DNA of 64,000 bases from Bacillota bacterium. GTDB lineage: Bacteria; Bacillota; DTU030; DUMP01. A program made the position numbers and the translations under genes. Shown here piece by piece: positions 34,839-42,740 of the stretch (position 1 is its first letter; each line of letters opens with the position of its first letter). The DNA lies in NCBI GenBank assembly GCA_012799605.1, contig JAAZKX010000032.1, positions 1 through 64,000 of the forward strand, written 5' to 3'. Below the pieces are notes generated by a model, which saw nothing but the letters and a program-made list of their open reading frames with translations, ran no database searches and was not told where the DNA came from.

Positions 34839-37691
34839 TTATTTCACCTGCCTCAGTTCGGCCGGGGCTGTGCTTTTTTCCAGCAAGGGGCGCAAGAATT
34901 GGCCGGTATACGAATTCTCACAGCGACAAATTTCTTCCGGCGTGCCTACAGCCAGCAGTTGTCCGCCTTTTTCGCCGCCCTCAGGCCCCAAATCAATCAC
35001 GTAATCAGCAGCTTTAATTACATCCAAGTTATGTTCGATCACCACTACTGTATTGCCGCCATCGACTAACCGCTGCAGTATACGTACTAGCTTTTCAATA
35101 TCGGCAAAATGCAAGCCTGTAGTTGGTTCATCGAGAATATATAAGGTACGTCCGGTAGAACGGCGGGACAATTCGGTGGCCAGCTTTACCCGCTGTGCTT
35201 CCCCTCCGGATAAAGTCGTTGCCGGCTGTCCCAGCTTGATGTAGCCGAGGCCAACATCGGACAACGCTTGCAGTCTGTTAGCTACGCGCGGAATATGGGC
35301 AAAAAAGGAAAGCGCTTCAGTAACAGTCATATTAAGCACATCGGCTATGTTTTTTCCTTTGTACTTTATCTCCAAAGTTTCCCGGTTGTAGCGTTGGCCT
35401 TTACAGACTTCGCAGGGCACATATACATCAGGCAAAAAGTGCATTTCGATTTTAAGGATCCCATCGCCACGGCAGGCTTCGCAGCGTCCGCCTCGCACAT
35501 TAAAACTAAACCGGCCTGGCTTATAACCGCGCATCCTGGCGTCCGCCGTAAGGCTAAACAATTCCCGAATAGGATCAAAGGCGCCGGTATAAGTAGCCGA
35601 GTTAGATCTGGGCGTACGACCAATGGGTGCTTGATCGATAGCGATCACTTTGTCCAAATATTCTCTACCCGTTATCTCCCGATGGCGTCCGGCCGGTTTT
35701 CGGGCCTGATGCAAATCCTGGGCTAATTGGCGGTACAAAATATTATTGACCAAAGTGCTCTTGCCCGATCCGGATACGCCGGTTACGCAAACAAACAAAC
35801 CTATGGGTATTTTGACATCAATATTTTTAAGGTTATGTTCAGCTGCCCCTACCACTTCCAGCCACTGGTCACCGGGCTGGCGACGCGAAAAGGGAACGGG
35901 AATGCTGCGCTTTCCACTCAAATATTGCCCGGTTATTGAGCGAGAACAAGCTTTAACCTGCTCGGGCGAACCGGTCGCAACCAAATATCCGCCTTGTTCA
36001 CCAGCTCCCGGCCCGATGTCCAGCAAAAAATCGGCCGCAGCCATTGTTTCAGCGTCATGTTCCACCACAATTATAGTGTTCCCCAAATCGCGCAGATCCT
36101 TCAAGGTTTTCAGTAGCCGTTGATTATCGCGCTGGTGCAGTCCAATAGTGGGTTCATCCAAAATATATAAAACACCGGTTAAACCGGAACCGATCTGGGT
36201 GGCCAACCGAATTCGTTGGGCCTCTCCTCCGGACAAGCTGCCCGCTACCCGGTCTAGGGTCAAATAATCCAAGCCAACATTGAGCAAGAAGCCCAACCGA
36301 GCTTGAATTTCTTTCAATATTCGTTCCGCTATCAAGCGGTCGCGTTCACTAAGCCGCAGTTTGGAAAAAAACTTATGGGCCTGGGCTACAGAACTTTTGG
36401 TTATAGTAGCGATGTTTTTACCTGCTACCGTCACCGCCAGCGCTTCTGGCCGCAATCGCTTCCCCTGACAAGCAGGACACGGATGAGGGTTCATATATTC
36501 TTCATACTCGGAACGGGCCCCCTGAGACTGCGACTCCCGGTAACGCCGCTTAAGAATGGGTATTACCCCTTCAAAATCCGTAGTGAAAATCCGCTGGTCA
36601 CCCCACCGGGTTTGATAGTCCACCCGGAAACGTTCACCGTCATTGCCCTCTAAAAGTATCTTTAAGTATTTGGGGTCGAGGTCTTTTAGTGGAACTTCAG
36701 TGCTAAATCCATAATGAGAGGCCAACGCCTCCAAAATTTGGGGGAAATAATTGGTCGACCGGCTAAAAGGCGCTATAGCCCCTTCTGCGATGGACTTGTC
36801 CATATCGGGAATAACGAGCTCAGGATCGATTTCCATAGTAGTGCCCAATCCAGTGCACTCGGGGCAAGCCCCATAAGGGCTGTTGAAAGAAAACAGCCGC
36901 GGTGATAATTCCTCAAAGCTAAAGCCGCAGGCAGGACAAGCAAATTTTTGCGAAAATGTCAGCTCCTCGCCGTCCAGCACAGAAACCTGGACTAAACCGT
37001 CGCTTAAGCCCAAAGTGAGTTCCAAGGAATCAGCCAAGCGTTTGCGAATGCCATCGCGGATCCGAAGTCTGTCCACCACTACCTCCACCGTGTGCTTTTT
37101 ATTTTTTTCTAGTTTGATTTCTTCGGTCAATTCACGTATTTTTCCGTCCACACGGATCCGGACAAAACCTTGGCGTTGTATGTCCTCGATAATACGCCGG
37201 TGCTCACCTTTACGGCCGCGAACTAAGGGGGCTAAAATCAATATCCTGCTATTTTCCGGCAACTTGAGCAGCTGATCTACCATTTCGTCCACTGTCTGGC
37301 GCCTGATCCGGTTGTTGCAGTGAGGACAGTGCGGAAGGCCGATACGGGCAAACAACAGTCGCAGATAGTCATAGATTTCCGTAACTGTACCTACCGTGGA
37401 CCGCGGATTGTGTATAGTGCTTTTTTGATCGATAGAGATAGCTGGCGACAGTCCTTCGATTAAATCCAGATCAGGCTTATCCATCTGCCCCAAAAATTGC
37501 CGGGCATAAGCTGAAAGCGATTCTACATACCGGCGCTGGCCTTCAGCATAAATAGTATCGAATGCCAGCGAAGATTTGCCCGAACCAGACAAACCGGTAA
37601 TCACCACTAGCTGCTCCCGCGGTATATCAACATCTATATTTTTAAGGTTATGCTGCCTGGCACCCCGGATTTTTATATATTTTTGGGCCAT
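34839..37691 (-). CDS. uvrA: UvrABC system protein A
   Basis: Damage-recognition ATPase, 950 residues, full length. Two ABC ATPase modules are visible: Walker [10 protein letters not shown] (about 34-42) and GVSGSGKST in the second half, with signature LSGGEAQR in each and DEPT Walker B. Zinc fingers [12 protein letters not shown]... CPECTG and the C-terminal CEACRGDG...CEVCKG are intact. It is directly upstream of uvrC. The promoter lies at 37733-37760. Confidence 0.97.
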
Positions 37692-37732
37692 GGCTGAATC
37701 ACTGCTTTCCTCGGGCCATATTTTCTCGCCTC

Positions 37733-37760
37733 ATTATATCACACCGAATATGAAAGCCAA
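37733..37760 (-). promoter_or_regulatory. Promoter for uvrA-uvrC
   Basis: On the minus strand TTGGCT (37760-37755), 16 bases, then TATAAT (37738-37733). The base before is TGA, giving an extended -10 (TGnTATAAT). The transcript start would be about 35 bases before the ATG. No LexA-like repeat is evident. Confidence 0.6.
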
Positions 37761-37784
37761 TAGACGGTCAATAATAAACAGCAG

Positions 37785-37808
37785 AAAAAAAGAGGGGCTC
37801 GCCCCTCC
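37785..37808 (-). terminator. Rho-independent terminator after ppsA
   Basis: Stem GAGGGG/CCCCTC (37792-37797 and 37802-37807) with a 4-base loop, then seven T on the minus strand (37785-37791). It ends the ppsA transcript 22 bases after its stop. Confidence 0.85.
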
Positions 37809-37829
37809 TATTTCTTTAGCTAAATAATT

Positions 37830-40178
37830 TTATTTATTGTTCAACCGGCTGCTGCGCAGTATTATTTTACGCTCTACCGAAGCGACCATCCGTTTTGTAT
37901 ATACAACCGTATCCGGATTGACGCTGATACTGTCCACTCCTTGCTCCACTAAAAAAGAAGCAAATTCAGGATATTGAGAAGGCCCTTGGCCACAGATGGA
38001 TATGGTCTTTTTATATTTGTGAGCTGCTTTGATCAAGGTTACAATAGCTCTTTTTACAGCCCGGTTCCGTTCATCAAAATACCCCATCCGGTTTAGAATT
38101 CCGGAATCGCGATCAGCTCCCATAACCAATTGGGTAAGATCATTACTTCCAATACTAAAACCATCTATTTGTTGGGCAAACTCTTCCGCTTCAAAAACCA
38201 CCGACGGCACCTCAGCCATGATCCATAGTTTAAAGTCATTATCTTGCTCCAAACCTTCAGAGGCCATGATTTGTTTAACTTTCTCCAGCTCCCAAATTGT
38301 ACGAACAAAAGGCAGCATTACCCATACGTTAGTTAGGCCGAATTCATCCCTAACCTTGCGAATGGCCCGGCATTCCAACCTAAACCCCTGCTCATACTCA
38401 GGTGAAATATAACGGGCTACGCCGCGCCAACCGATCATGGGATTACTTTCCACAGGCTCTACTTCTTCGCCCCCTTTGAGGCCGCGAAATTCATTAGTGC
38501 GAAAATCGCTTAATCTTACCACCACCGGGCGCGGGTAAATAGCCTGGGCCACCATGCTGATCCCCTCGGCCATTTTTTCGATAACTATATTTCCTTGCCC
38601 ACTTTTGAGCAAATACATGGGATGGGCTCCGACCATATCGGTAAAAATAAATTCCGTCCGCATCAGCCCGATACCATCTAGCGGCAAATGTTGATACCTT
38701 TTTATTAACGAAGGCTGGCCCAAATTCATATAGATTTTGGTAGCCGTGACCGGCGTTAATTGGCTTATCAGTTCGTCACTGATGACGCCGGTAAAAACTT
38801 TTTCCTCTTCTTTTTCTGGTTCCAATTCTACTTTCCCGGCGTAGACAACACCACAGGTGGCATCGACTGTAACAGTTGCACCCTGAAGCAATGTTTCCGT
38901 CGCTATTTTGGCCCCTACTATACAAGGGATACCCAATTCTCGCGATACAATAGCAGCATGGCAGGTGCGCCCACCTTCGTCAGTAACCACTGCGCAGGCT
39001 TTGCGCATAGCAGGCACCATGTCCGGATTGGTCATCACTGTAACTAACACATCTCCATCTTGTACCTGGGCTATTTCTTTCACATCTTTTATTTTTCTTA
39101 CCTTGCCGCTGGCAATTCCGGGAGATGCGGACAACCCCCGCACTATCACTTGAGGCTGGGCCGCTTCCGTCGGCTCGGGCTTTTTCTCGATGGTTGTTAT
39201 CGGGCGGGTTTGCAAAATATATAATTCTTGGCTGTCCTGATCATAACCCCACTCGATATCTTGATAGGCATCATATAGTTTTTCGATTTTACAGCCATAC
39301 TTAACCAGTTCTTTTATTTCCGCCTCGGTTAAGCATTGCGCTTTTACCATCTCTGGCCCCAGCTCATCGGCTACAGGCACACATTTAGTACCTATCTTGC
39401 TGCTGGAGTGTATAATCATCACCGTTTTGTCAGCAATATTTTTTTCCAAGATAGAAAGAGTGTTTTTATCCACAATGTATTCATCCGGGGTCACCTGGCC
39501 GGAAACCACCGCCTCGCCCAAACCCCAGCTGGCATTTATCATCACCTGTTCAGGCTCGTTGGTTACAGGGTTTGCCGTAAACATCACGCCTGATTTTTTG
39601 CTGTCTATCATTTTTTGCACGGTAACGCTGAGGGCAACTTCCAAATGATCAAAGCCTTGCCGCTCCCGGTAATATACTGCCCTGGCAGTCCATAATGAGG
39701 CCCAGCAGCGCTGCACATGCTTTAATACCTGCTCCTCCCCGGCGATATAAAGATACGTGTCCTGCTGACCGGCAAAAGATGCCTCCGGCAAATCTTCAGC
39801 CGTGGCTGAGCTTCTTATGGCCACAGCCGGGGTGTTTGTATTCGTCCGCCGGCCCAGTTCATCATAACCGGCCCGCACTTCCGCCGCGATTTTTTCCGGG
39901 ATAGGCGTATTGACGATCAGTTCCCGTATGCGTGCACTTTCGCTCTGTAATTGAAACGCATCTTCCACATCCAGTCCCGCGATGATGTCCGCTATCTTCT
40001 CCTTAAGGTTGCCTTCCTGCAGCAGATACCAATAAGCCTCAGCGGTAAGACAAAACGCTGGTGGTACCTTAATCCCATTTTGGACCAGTTCGCCCAGATT
40101 AGCCCCTTTTCCCCCCACCAGTGCTACATCCTCTTTGTCCACATCTTCCAACCATTTCACAAACTGAAATTGGTGCAA
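37830..40178 (-). CDS. ppsA: Phosphoenolpyruvate synthase (pyruvate, water dikinase)
   Basis: Makes PEP, AMP and phosphate from pyruvate and ATP. 782 residues. The N-terminal ATP-grasp domain (VGGKGANLGELV; IRSSATAEDLPEASFAGQQDTYL) is followed by the phosphohistidine domain with H407 in GGRTCHAAIVSRELGIPCIVG and the C-terminal PEP/pyruvate barrel (SIGSNDLTQLVMGADRD). The start is TTG (40176-40178) with GGAGG seven bases upstream. Promoter and terminator of its own indicate a single-gene transcript in the uvrA-uvrB interval. With pyk and pckA nearby it gives control over the pyruvate-PEP step. Confidence 0.95.
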   Translation of the reverse strand: MHQFQFVKWLEDVDKEDVALVGGKGANLGELVQNGIKVPPAFCLTAEAYWYLLQEGNLKEKIADIIAGLDVEDAFQLQSESARIRELIVNTPIPEKIAAEVRAGYDELGRRTNTNTPAVAIRSSATAEDLPEASFAGQQDTYLYIAGEEQVLKHVQRCWASLWTARAVYYRERQGFDHLEVALSVTVQKMIDSKKSGVMFTANPVTNEPEQVMINASWGLGEAVVSGQVTPDEYIVDKNTLSILEKNIADKTVMIIHSSSKIGTKCVPVADELGPEMVKAQCLTEAEIKELVKYGCKIEKLYDAYQDIEWGYDQDSQELYILQTRPITTIEKKPEPTEAAQPQVIVRGLSASPGIASGKVRKIKDVKEIAQVQDGDVLVTVMTNPDMVPAMRKACAVVTDEGGRTCHAAIVSRELGIPCIVGAKIATETLLQGATVTVDATCGVVYAGKVELEPEKEEEKVFTGVISDELISQLTPVTATKIYMNLGQPSLIKRYQHLPLDGIGLMRTEFIFTDMVGAHPMYLLKSGQGNIVIEKMAEGISMVAQAIYPRPVVVRLSDFRTNEFRGLKGGEEVEPVESNPMIGWRGVARYISPEYEQGFRLECRAIRKVRDEFGLTNVWVMLPFVRTIWELEKVKQIMASEGLEQDNDFKLWIMAEVPSVVFEAEEFAQQIDGFSIGSNDLTQLVMGADRDSGILNRMGYFDERNRAVKRAIVTLIKAAHKYKKTISICGQGPSQYPEFASFLVEQGVDSISVNPDTVVYTKRMVASVERKIILRSSRLNNK

Positions 40179-40209
40179 GGTAGCCCCTCCTTTAGGCCTT
40201 ATTGACCAT

Positions 40210-40218
40210 ATTATAACA
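40210..40218 (-). promoter_or_regulatory. Extended -10 promoter for ppsA
   Basis: The minus strand carries TGTTATAAT, a perfect extended -10 (TG, one base, TATAAT at 40215-40210). The expected -35 position has no good match, which is usual for extended -10 promoters. A perfect 7-7-7 inverted repeat lies about 45 bases upstream at 40258-40278. Confidence 0.55.
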
Positions 40219-40257
40219 TATTTATTTCAATGTGCTACCTTATATTACCCTTATTCT

Positions 40258-40278
40258 ATAAGTATGTCCACTACTTAT
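40258..40278. promoter_or_regulatory. Perfect palindrome upstream of ppsA promoter
   Basis: ATAAGTA (40258-40264), seven bases, TACTTAT (40272-40278). This is a perfect interrupted inverted repeat, lying between the glutaredoxin terminator and the ppsA promoter; a regulator binding site is plausible. Confidence 0.45.
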
Positions 40279-40291
40279 AACTTGGTGCTCA

Positions 40292-40334
40292 TAATAAAAG
40301 AGTCTTGCCCTCCGTAGTTGAAAGGGCAAGACCT
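40292..40334 (-). terminator. Terminator after the glutaredoxin gene
   Basis: GTCTTGCCC (40302-40310) and GGGCAAGAC (40324-40332) form a perfect 9-bp stem. On the minus strand it is followed by TCTTTTATTAT, an interrupted T run, consistent with termination after the glutaredoxin. It lies about 20 bases after the stop. Confidence 0.75.
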
Positions 40335-40354
40335 TTATTCGGGAAAGCGGATGG

Positions 40355-40597
40355 CTATAGGTTTAGCAATTTCTTGATACGATCTTGGTCAAAACCTACC
40401 ACCGCTTGATCACCGATTTTAAGCGCCGGCACGGCCAGGCGGCCGGTCAGATTCACCATTTCCTCCCTGGCTTCCCGATCGGCAGCCACGTCTTTTTCTT
40501 CAAACGAAACATCATGCTGGGAAAGAAACTCTTTCACCAAAGTACAGTAGGGTCAAGTGGGCGTAACATAAAGAATCACCGGGGTCTGATCGGTCAT
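40355..40597 (-). CDS. Selenocysteine-containing glutaredoxin-like protein (in-frame TGA)
   Basis: An 80-residue glutaredoxin/NrdH-like protein. Reading from ATG at 40595-40597, the fifteenth codon is TGA (40553-40555) in the motif T-P-T-(TGA)-P-Y-C, exactly where the first active-site cysteine of CPYC belongs; the frame then stays open through the rest of the fold, with the cis-proline motif AVPALKIGDQAVVGFD and the terminal helix. GGGAGG lies about six bases before the ATG. A hairpin with SECIS-like features starts 16 bases after the TGA. Selenocysteine (U15) is therefore the likely reading. Enzymes of this fold reduce disulfides, for example in ribonucleotide reductase. The alternative, a nonsense mutation, is less likely because frame and motifs are intact. 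selA/B/C/D are not in the window. Confidence 0.85.
40519..40538 (-). promoter_or_regulatory. Bacterial SECIS-like hairpin in the glutaredoxin gene
   Basis: On the minus strand GG (40538-40537), a bulged T (40536), GAAAG (40535-40531), loop AGTTT (40530-40526), CTTTC (40525-40521) and CC (40520-40519). Seven base pairs, one bulged U, and G at the second loop position. The loop begins 22 bases after the TGA, inside the 16-37 base range known for bacterial SECIS elements. Confidence 0.7.
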
Positions 40598-40627
40598 GTT
40601 AATTCCTCCCTGTAGGTTAGTTTTTCC

Positions 40628-40672
40628 GTCCCGACGGATGTTATCTCAGTATACCACATTATCCTTCGGGAC
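40628..40672. repeat. Inverted repeat upstream of glutaredoxin gene
   Basis: GTCCCGACGGAT (40628-40639) and ATCCTTCGGGAC (40661-40672) are complementary with one mismatch across a 21-base spacer. On the minus strand the spacer holds TATACT (40653-40648), a possible -10 box for the glutaredoxin gene, though a matching -35 is not clear. It could be an operator or the 3' hairpin of the uvrB message. Confidence 0.5.
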
Positions 40673-40751
40673 TACAGGTAGTATTCTAGGCCCGCTTTTT
40701 ACCGAACCCTTCTTTAACTATCTACTGCCAGCCATTTAACCGGCCTATATG

Positions 40752-42740
40752 TTATTTTCGCAACATCATTTTAGCTTCCAGCAGCAGGTCACGATACTGG
40801 GCTGCATCTTCAAAGGCCAATCGCTTGGCTGCTTTATGCATCTTTTCCTCCAGCTCACCTATCCAGTGTTTTAATTCGACCGCCGACATCGACCTGATGC
40901 TTTTTTCCCGCGGCAAATATTCTTCCGCTTTTTCGGCCGCCTTCGTCGCTTCAATAACCGCCCGAACTTCTTTTTGTACCGTCTGGGGCGTAATGCCATG
41001 TTTCTTATTATACTCGGCTTGGATGCGGCGCCTACGATTAGTTTCTTCTATCGCCTGCTGCATAGAATCAGTTATAGTATCGGCATACATGATCACTCGC
41101 CCATCCACATTTCTGGCCGCCCGGCCGCTGGTTTGAATCAATGACCGTTGCGAGCGCAAAAAACCTTCTTTGTCAGCATCTAAAATTGCCACCAAAGATA
41201 CTTCCGGTAAATCCAAGCCTTCCCGAAGAAGGTTGATGCCCACCAATACGTCAAATTCGCCCAGGCGCAAATCCCGAATTATTTCCATCCGTTCCAACGT
41301 GCCGATATCAGAGTGTAAATAGCGCACCCGAATGCCGGTGTCGAGCAAATAATCGGTTAAATTTTCCGCCATGCGTTTGGTCAAGGTTGTTATTAGCACT
41401 CGTTGGTTTTTCCGAGCCCGCAGGCGAATCTCCACTAGCAAATCATCTATTTGACCTTTGGTCGGTCGGACCTCAATTTTAGGATCCAGCAAGCCGGTGG
41501 GTCTGACAACTTGCTCGACTATTTGTTGGCTGACTTCAAGTTCATATGGGCCCGGTGTAGCCGAGGTAAATATTACCCGGTTGATCCGCTGAGCAAATTC
41601 TTCAAACCTCAACGGCCGGTTATCGTAAGCCGAAGGGAGGCGAAAGCCATGTTCCACCAAACTGTCTTTGCGGGAACGGTCGCCGGCGTACATAGCGTGA
41701 AGCTGTGGAATAGTCATATGGGACTCATCGATGATAATCAAGTAGTCCTCCGGAAAAAAATCAAGCAGTGTATAGGGCGGTTCGCCCGGAGCTCGGCCGG
41801 TAAGATGGCGGGAGTAGTTCTCGATCCCCTGGCAATAGCCCACTTCAGACAGCATCTCCAAATCGTAACGTGTTCGCTGCTCCAACCGGTGCGCCTCGAA
41901 TTCTTTGCCCTTGGCCCTTAGCTCGGCCAACCGCTGCTCCAGCTCCTGTTCGATCGAAGCCATAGCTCGTAGGCGTGTTTGCTGGGAGGTAACATAGTGG
42001 CTGGCCGGATAAATAGCAACGTGCCGCCGCTGTCCTAACACCTCGCCGGTTAAAGTGTCAAATTCCCACAGGGAATCGATCTCGTCACCGAAAAACTCCA
42101 CCCGGATAGCCCGGGCAGTGGCCGAGGCTGGAAATATTTCTACCACATCGCCGCGAACTCTAAAATTACCCCGGCTCAGCGCCAAGTCGTTGCGGCTGTA
42201 CTGCATATCTACCAGTTTTTTCAGGACTTCATCCCGGTCCCGTTCATCGCCGGTCCATAAAGACAACACCTGTTCCCGGTACTCACCAGGCGACCCCAAC
42301 CCGTAAATACAAGAAACGCTGGCCACCACAATTACATCTTTCCGTTCCAACAAAGCGCTAGTAGCAGCGTGACGCAGCTTGTCGATCTCGTCATTAATCG
42401 AAGCATCTTTTTCAATATAGGTATCAGTATGGGCAATATAAGCCTCCGGTTGATAATAGTCATAGTAGCTGACAAAGTATTCAACCGCATTGCTCGGAAA
42501 GAACTCACGAAATTCACTACACAGCTGGGCGGCCAAAGTTTTGTTATGAGCTATTACCAATGTTGGCAGCTGCACAGCTTCAATTATGCCGGCCATGGAA
42601 AAAGTTTTGCCCGACCCGGTGACTCCTAGTAAAGTTTGGCACCGATAACCATCTTTTATTCCCCGGGCCAAAGCCGCTATAGCTTTGGCTTGGTCACCCC
42701 GTGGCACCAAATCAGTTTGTAGGAGCAATTTGTTCCCCAT
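40752..42740 (-). CDS. uvrB: UvrABC system protein B
   Basis: DNA-damage verification helicase of nucleotide excision repair, 662 residues, full length. Walker [10 protein letters not shown] (about 39-47), the beta-hairpin region ([21 protein letters not shown]), DESHMTIPQ Walker B, SATPGPYE, and the C-terminal UVR motif ([26 protein letters not shown]) are present. ATG with GGGAGG nine bases upstream. uvrB is separated from uvrA-uvrC by ppsA and the glutaredoxin gene, which is not the usual uvrB-uvrA order. Confidence 0.97.

Follow-up and report, generated by a model that had tools for sequence, protein, structure and literature searches.

The gene described here very probably encodes a selenocysteine (Sec) glutaredoxin, in which an in-frame TGA at the first catalytic position would be decoded by Sec insertion and the resulting U-P-Y-C site would carry out dithiol redox chemistry. 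It lies in a stretch of 64,000 nucleotides from an uncultured Bacillota bacterium, which is referred to below as the window. The interpretation is supported by the alternation of TGA and Cys codons among homologues, by selA, selB and selD in the genome and by conservation of a hairpin RNA in the TGA forms only. Taken together, the sequence evidence covers the reading frame, the active site, the exchange of Sec and Cys at one locus, the conserved hairpin RNA, the Sec machinery minus tRNA-Sec, and other selenoprotein genes. The result is a clean, well-supported candidate selenoprotein of the kind that is cut short or overlooked when annotation relies on stop codons.

Reading frame, active site and SECIS hairpin

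The gene is read from the minus strand (Table 1), the strand having been left unstated in the preliminary description. Reading 40355–40597 on the plus strand gives no protein, only nonsense, and was dropped. The reverse complement translates into MTDQTPVILYVTPTUPYCTLVKEFLSQHDVSFEEKDVAADREAREEMVNLTGRLAVPALKIGDQAVVGFDQDRIKKLLNL ahead of the stop, with a single TGA, at codon 15. As had been proposed, this TGA falls at the first Cys of the CPYC site, and the ribosome-binding site, frame and fold are intact on either side of it. The Pfam Glutaredoxin model (PF00462) matches residues 7–65, spanning the TGA, with an E-value of 9e-18 and 64.7 bits against a gathering cut-off of 22.9. The invariant positions in the alignment of homologues (A1) are T14, U/C15, P16, C18, V56 and P57, which comprise the C/U-P-x-C site and the Val-Pro cis-Pro motif. 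The frame given in the mechanical ORF list has just 61 codons, starting from a TTG at 40540, and is without the active site.

Table 1. Features of the glutaredoxin gene and its surroundings, in window coordinates
Feature	Position	Strand	Remarks
Sec glutaredoxin-like gene	40355–40597	minus	80 codons plus stop; ATG 40597–40595; stop TAG 40357–40355
GGGAGG ribosome-binding site	40605–40610	minus	7 bases upstream of the ATG
In-frame TGA, codon 15, predicted to be read as selenocysteine	40553–40555	minus	catalytic first position of CPYC; from homologue comparison
Resolving Cys codon TGT, residue 18	40544–40546	minus	invariant in the alignment
SECIS hairpin (putative)	40517–40540	minus	outer stem 40540–40537/40520–40517; bulged U 40536; inner stem 40535–40531/40525–40521; loop AGUUU 40530–40526
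Likely intrinsic terminator of the glutaredoxin gene	40301–40333	minus	13-pair stem and T-rich tail
uvrB, directly upstream of the glutaredoxin gene	40752–42740	minus	locus context, no part in the mechanism

The minus-strand gene order across 34839–42740 is uvrB, glutaredoxin, PEP synthase and uvrA; in one relative (G005), uvrA directly follows the glutaredoxin gene and there is no PEP synthase in between. Because the glutaredoxin gene has its own likely terminator and a gap of approximately 155 bases separates it from uvrB, no functional conclusion was drawn from the uvrB/uvrA neighbourhood.

The hairpin has the sequence UUGG-(U)-GAAAG-AGUUU-CUUUC-CCAG. It starts 12 bases after the TGA, with the loop, which contains a G, following 22 bases after the TGA. 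This base-by-base layout bears out the earlier claim of a hairpin with a bulged U and the loop AGTTT at that distance. No Rfam match to the hairpin was found, either for the window at the gathering score or for 40450–40640 at a loose threshold. Of the 1777 TGAs in the whole window, 57 are followed by a loose bSECIS-like pattern, which is also present in 687 of 20000 synonymously recoded versions of the hairpin stretch (3.4%); the exact helix arises in 52 of 20000 (0.26%). Taken alone, the hairpin is weak evidence and only moderately unusual.

The conservation of the hairpin among TGA-bearing homologues is, on the sequences compared, far beyond chance. All five inner pairs are kept in each of the 31 TGA homologues from Bacillota versus 3 of the 20 Cys homologues, and the loop G is kept in 30 of the 31. 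In one TGA form (L049), the five inner pairs are kept via changed pairs (AAGAG/CUCUU). Beyond the inner stem the structure is variable, and as the “bulged” U can pair in three TGA forms (L031, L032 and L080), the bulge is not universal. At the Leu codon of the stem, 30 of 31 TGA forms have CTT, compared with 5 of 20 among the Cys forms (p=7e-8 by Fisher's test, a rough value since the rows are related, with a large effect); elsewhere in these TGA genes, CTT accounts for just 18% of Leu codons. It is in the TGA forms alone that synonymous codons of the hairpin are frozen, which indicates a constraint acting at the level of the RNA.

Exchange of TGA and Cys codons among homologues

Homologues were sought in 100 relatives and then in 399 genomes of the phylum. 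A scan of contigs with the single protein as query gave only three relatives, and the whole-genome search was far more fruitful. Codon 15 was read in 31 TGA homologues, the window gene included, and in 20 Cys homologues. It is always TGA, TGC or TGT, so that a Cys codon alternates with TGA and no other residue occurs there. Relatives with a different codon and no Cys, which according to the preliminary description would speak against a selenocysteine, were not found among these.

Six family orthologues all adjoin uvrB, which defines a common locus. The codon is TGA in four of them (G001, G003, G004 and G006), TGT in G002 and TGC in G005. The inner hairpin is still present in the Cys orthologue of G005 and gone from that of G002. 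Three Cys genes retain the SECIS inner stem (L026 in G005, L037 in G011 and L076 in G310, the last without the loop G), and these are apparently fossils of a recent change from Sec to Cys. On a tree of 52 rows, Sec/Cys changes number at least four by starred branches and seven on the best tree, which has few columns and many unresolved forks. The leftover hairpins argue for the Sec-to-Cys direction in those Cys forms. As a set, the uvrB-linked orthologues, with either Sec or Cys, offer a natural comparison of selenocysteine loss and SECIS hairpin decay.

A homologue with one in-frame TGA is present in about 60 of the 399 sampled Bacillota genomes, the position of the TGA having been verified in 31 homologues. 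Bacterial Sec glutaredoxins had been described beforehand as known but rare. They are indeed known, but this count does not agree with rarity: it suggests that Bacillota carry them far more often than a 2026 review implies in speaking of a “limited number of bacterial species” (PMC13188914).

Selenocysteine machinery and the reading of the TGA

The draft genome to which the window belongs (G000) comprises 1.57 Mb in 89 contigs and is 92.5% complete. It encodes selA (525.7 bits), selB (360.8 bits) and selD (372.6 bits), all above cut-off, with selA and selB adjacent on contig C21 and selD on C33. A single TGA occupies the canonical Sec position both in selD itself (L015; AAAGUGAKLG) and in fdhA, which encodes formate dehydrogenase alpha (L098, contig C41; ARLUHAP). 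The tRNA-Sec gene, selC, was not found in this draft using the Rfam model, ARAGORN on contigs that included the selAB one, or the selC DNA of the same-genus genome G002 as query. Those sub-threshold Rfam candidates that were checked are, according to ARAGORN, ordinary tRNAs (Ser, Leu, Gly, Arg, Cys and others). The gene was also not found in a second genome of the genus, G001. Absence of selA, selB or selC had been named in advance as evidence against a selenocysteine; technically this holds for selC in the draft, and it does not hold for selA or selB.

Six of seven family members carry tRNA-Sec, with scores of 79–81 bits, and G003 and G004 have the gene a short way downstream of a SelB-like frame. 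The gap downstream of selB in the window's own genome contains a molybdenum-cofactor riboswitch (L050, contig C21, 5418–5538, minus strand; RF01055, 62.9 bits) and no selC. Because the gap that holds selC in G003 and G004 is occupied in this way, selC has probably been relocated in the lineage of this genome. G002 has two copies of selC (L057 and L063, on contigs C62 and C79), which share 135 bases and are situated within 42 bases of contig ends; selC is possibly duplicated there. The simplest reading of the missing gene is that of an assembly gap, a repeated selC having likely been dropped from short-read assemblies. This is the better reading because selA, selB and the other selenoprotein genes are intact and because related genomes carry selC.

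Were the TGA a true stop, either the gene would be a pseudogene whose active-site Cys codon has gone, or selC would have been lost from the lineage. The absence of the tRNA-Sec gene from both this draft and G001 is in keeping with such a loss, which is nonetheless very unlikely: past the TGA the frame stays intact and is conserved across homologues, which reach up to 76% identity, the same TGA is found in four orthologues at the same locus, and selA and selB are intact in a genome whose selD and fdhA need UGA decoding as well. In addition, the shared 135 bases of the G002 selC copies and their position near contig ends are how repeats drop out of short-read assemblies.

An error in the sequence, whereby TGC or TGT was read as TGA, would require a single base change in a draft of 89 contigs. 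The TGA is present in independent genomes (31 homologues, including the window gene), every one of these homologues retaining the hairpin, which makes this explanation vanishingly improbable. Just as improbable is the genome-wide reading of TGA as an ordinary amino acid such as Trp, Gly or Cys. While a TGA within a conserved frame is what this would produce, TGA terminates 11 of the 45 non-overlapping window ORFs of at least 150 codons, selD and fdhA have TGA solely at the Sec position, and apart from the glutaredoxin no TGA read-through frame in the gaps of the window was recognised as a known protein. Nor were many conserved frames with TGA at Trp or other sites seen, which general reassignment would produce. 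Pseudogene, sequencing error and general reassignment were all rejected on this evidence.

As a Sec glutaredoxin, the product would be a small dithiol redoxin with the glutaredoxin fold and the active site U-P-Y-C. When a ribosome reaches the UGA, SelB carrying Sec-tRNA-Sec would bind the hairpin 12 bases downstream, and selenocysteine would be inserted in place of termination. The selenolate would then attack a disulfide of a substrate protein (or oxidised selenium or sulfur) and Cys18 would resolve the mixed bond, after which the oxidised redoxin would be re-reduced. The precedent for the substrate is methionine sulfoxide reductase. The genome encodes a full-length thioredoxin reductase, whereas a search of the draft for a PF04262 glutamate-cysteine ligase found none; because of these two observations, there are hints that the electrons may arrive via NADPH-thioredoxin reductase rather than glutathione. 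More tentatively, and rather less likely than not, this could be a Sec protein of glutaredoxin fold that works without glutathione and is reduced directly by thioredoxin reductase, with Sec/Cys replacement at one locus leaving fossil SECIS hairpins behind.

Comparison with known glutaredoxins

The top NCBIfam model is GlrX_YruB (TIGR02196), which matches the window protein over its full length at 82.1 bits, below the curated cut-off of 88.55, and is matched by all 32 aligned homologues. It is a hypothetical equivalog model with a description that contains no Sec annotation. The UXX-star models likewise represent glutaredoxin-like (seleno)proteins, and here too the window protein, which keeps the second Cys of the site (UPYC), scores below cut-off (57.8 versus 66 for NF041212 and 43.5 versus 100 for NF041211). 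With scores just under the YruB-type and UXX-star cut-offs, automated naming may miss this protein.

Glutaredoxin (UxxC) is among the experimentally verified prokaryotic selenoprotein families (PMC13188914), and Sec glutaredoxins have been predicted in Moorella thermoacetica, Alkaliphilus metalliredigenes and Geobacter sulfurreducens (PMC1794560). These are listed there as Grx selenoproteins of anaerobic bacteria, two of the three being Clostridia.

The best PDB match is chain 7C10, “Glutaredoxin” (E=3.7e-19). This entry, with 7C12 and 7C13, appears to be cGrx1 of Clostridium (Alkaliphilus) oremlandii, the link to PMC7642778 being by content and not by printed accession. Structures of C. oremlandii Grx1 have been reported; it is described as a native selenoprotein whose motif is U(or C)PXC and is the proposed reductant of a selenoprotein MsrA (PMC7642778). 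The sole MsrA found in the window's own genome is without an in-frame TGA and, judging from the genes, does not form a tandem-selenium pair of the C. oremlandii type. The two redoxins differ by a one-residue gap and clearly diverged sequence, and they share the UPxC site, equal length and fold, the KEFLS helix after the site and a VGFD motif near the C-terminus. The kind of protein is already known and the window gene is ordinary in kind; the small additions made here are that Sec and Cys replace each other at a single locus, some Cys forms still carrying a remnant hairpin, and that such genes are frequent in Bacillota.
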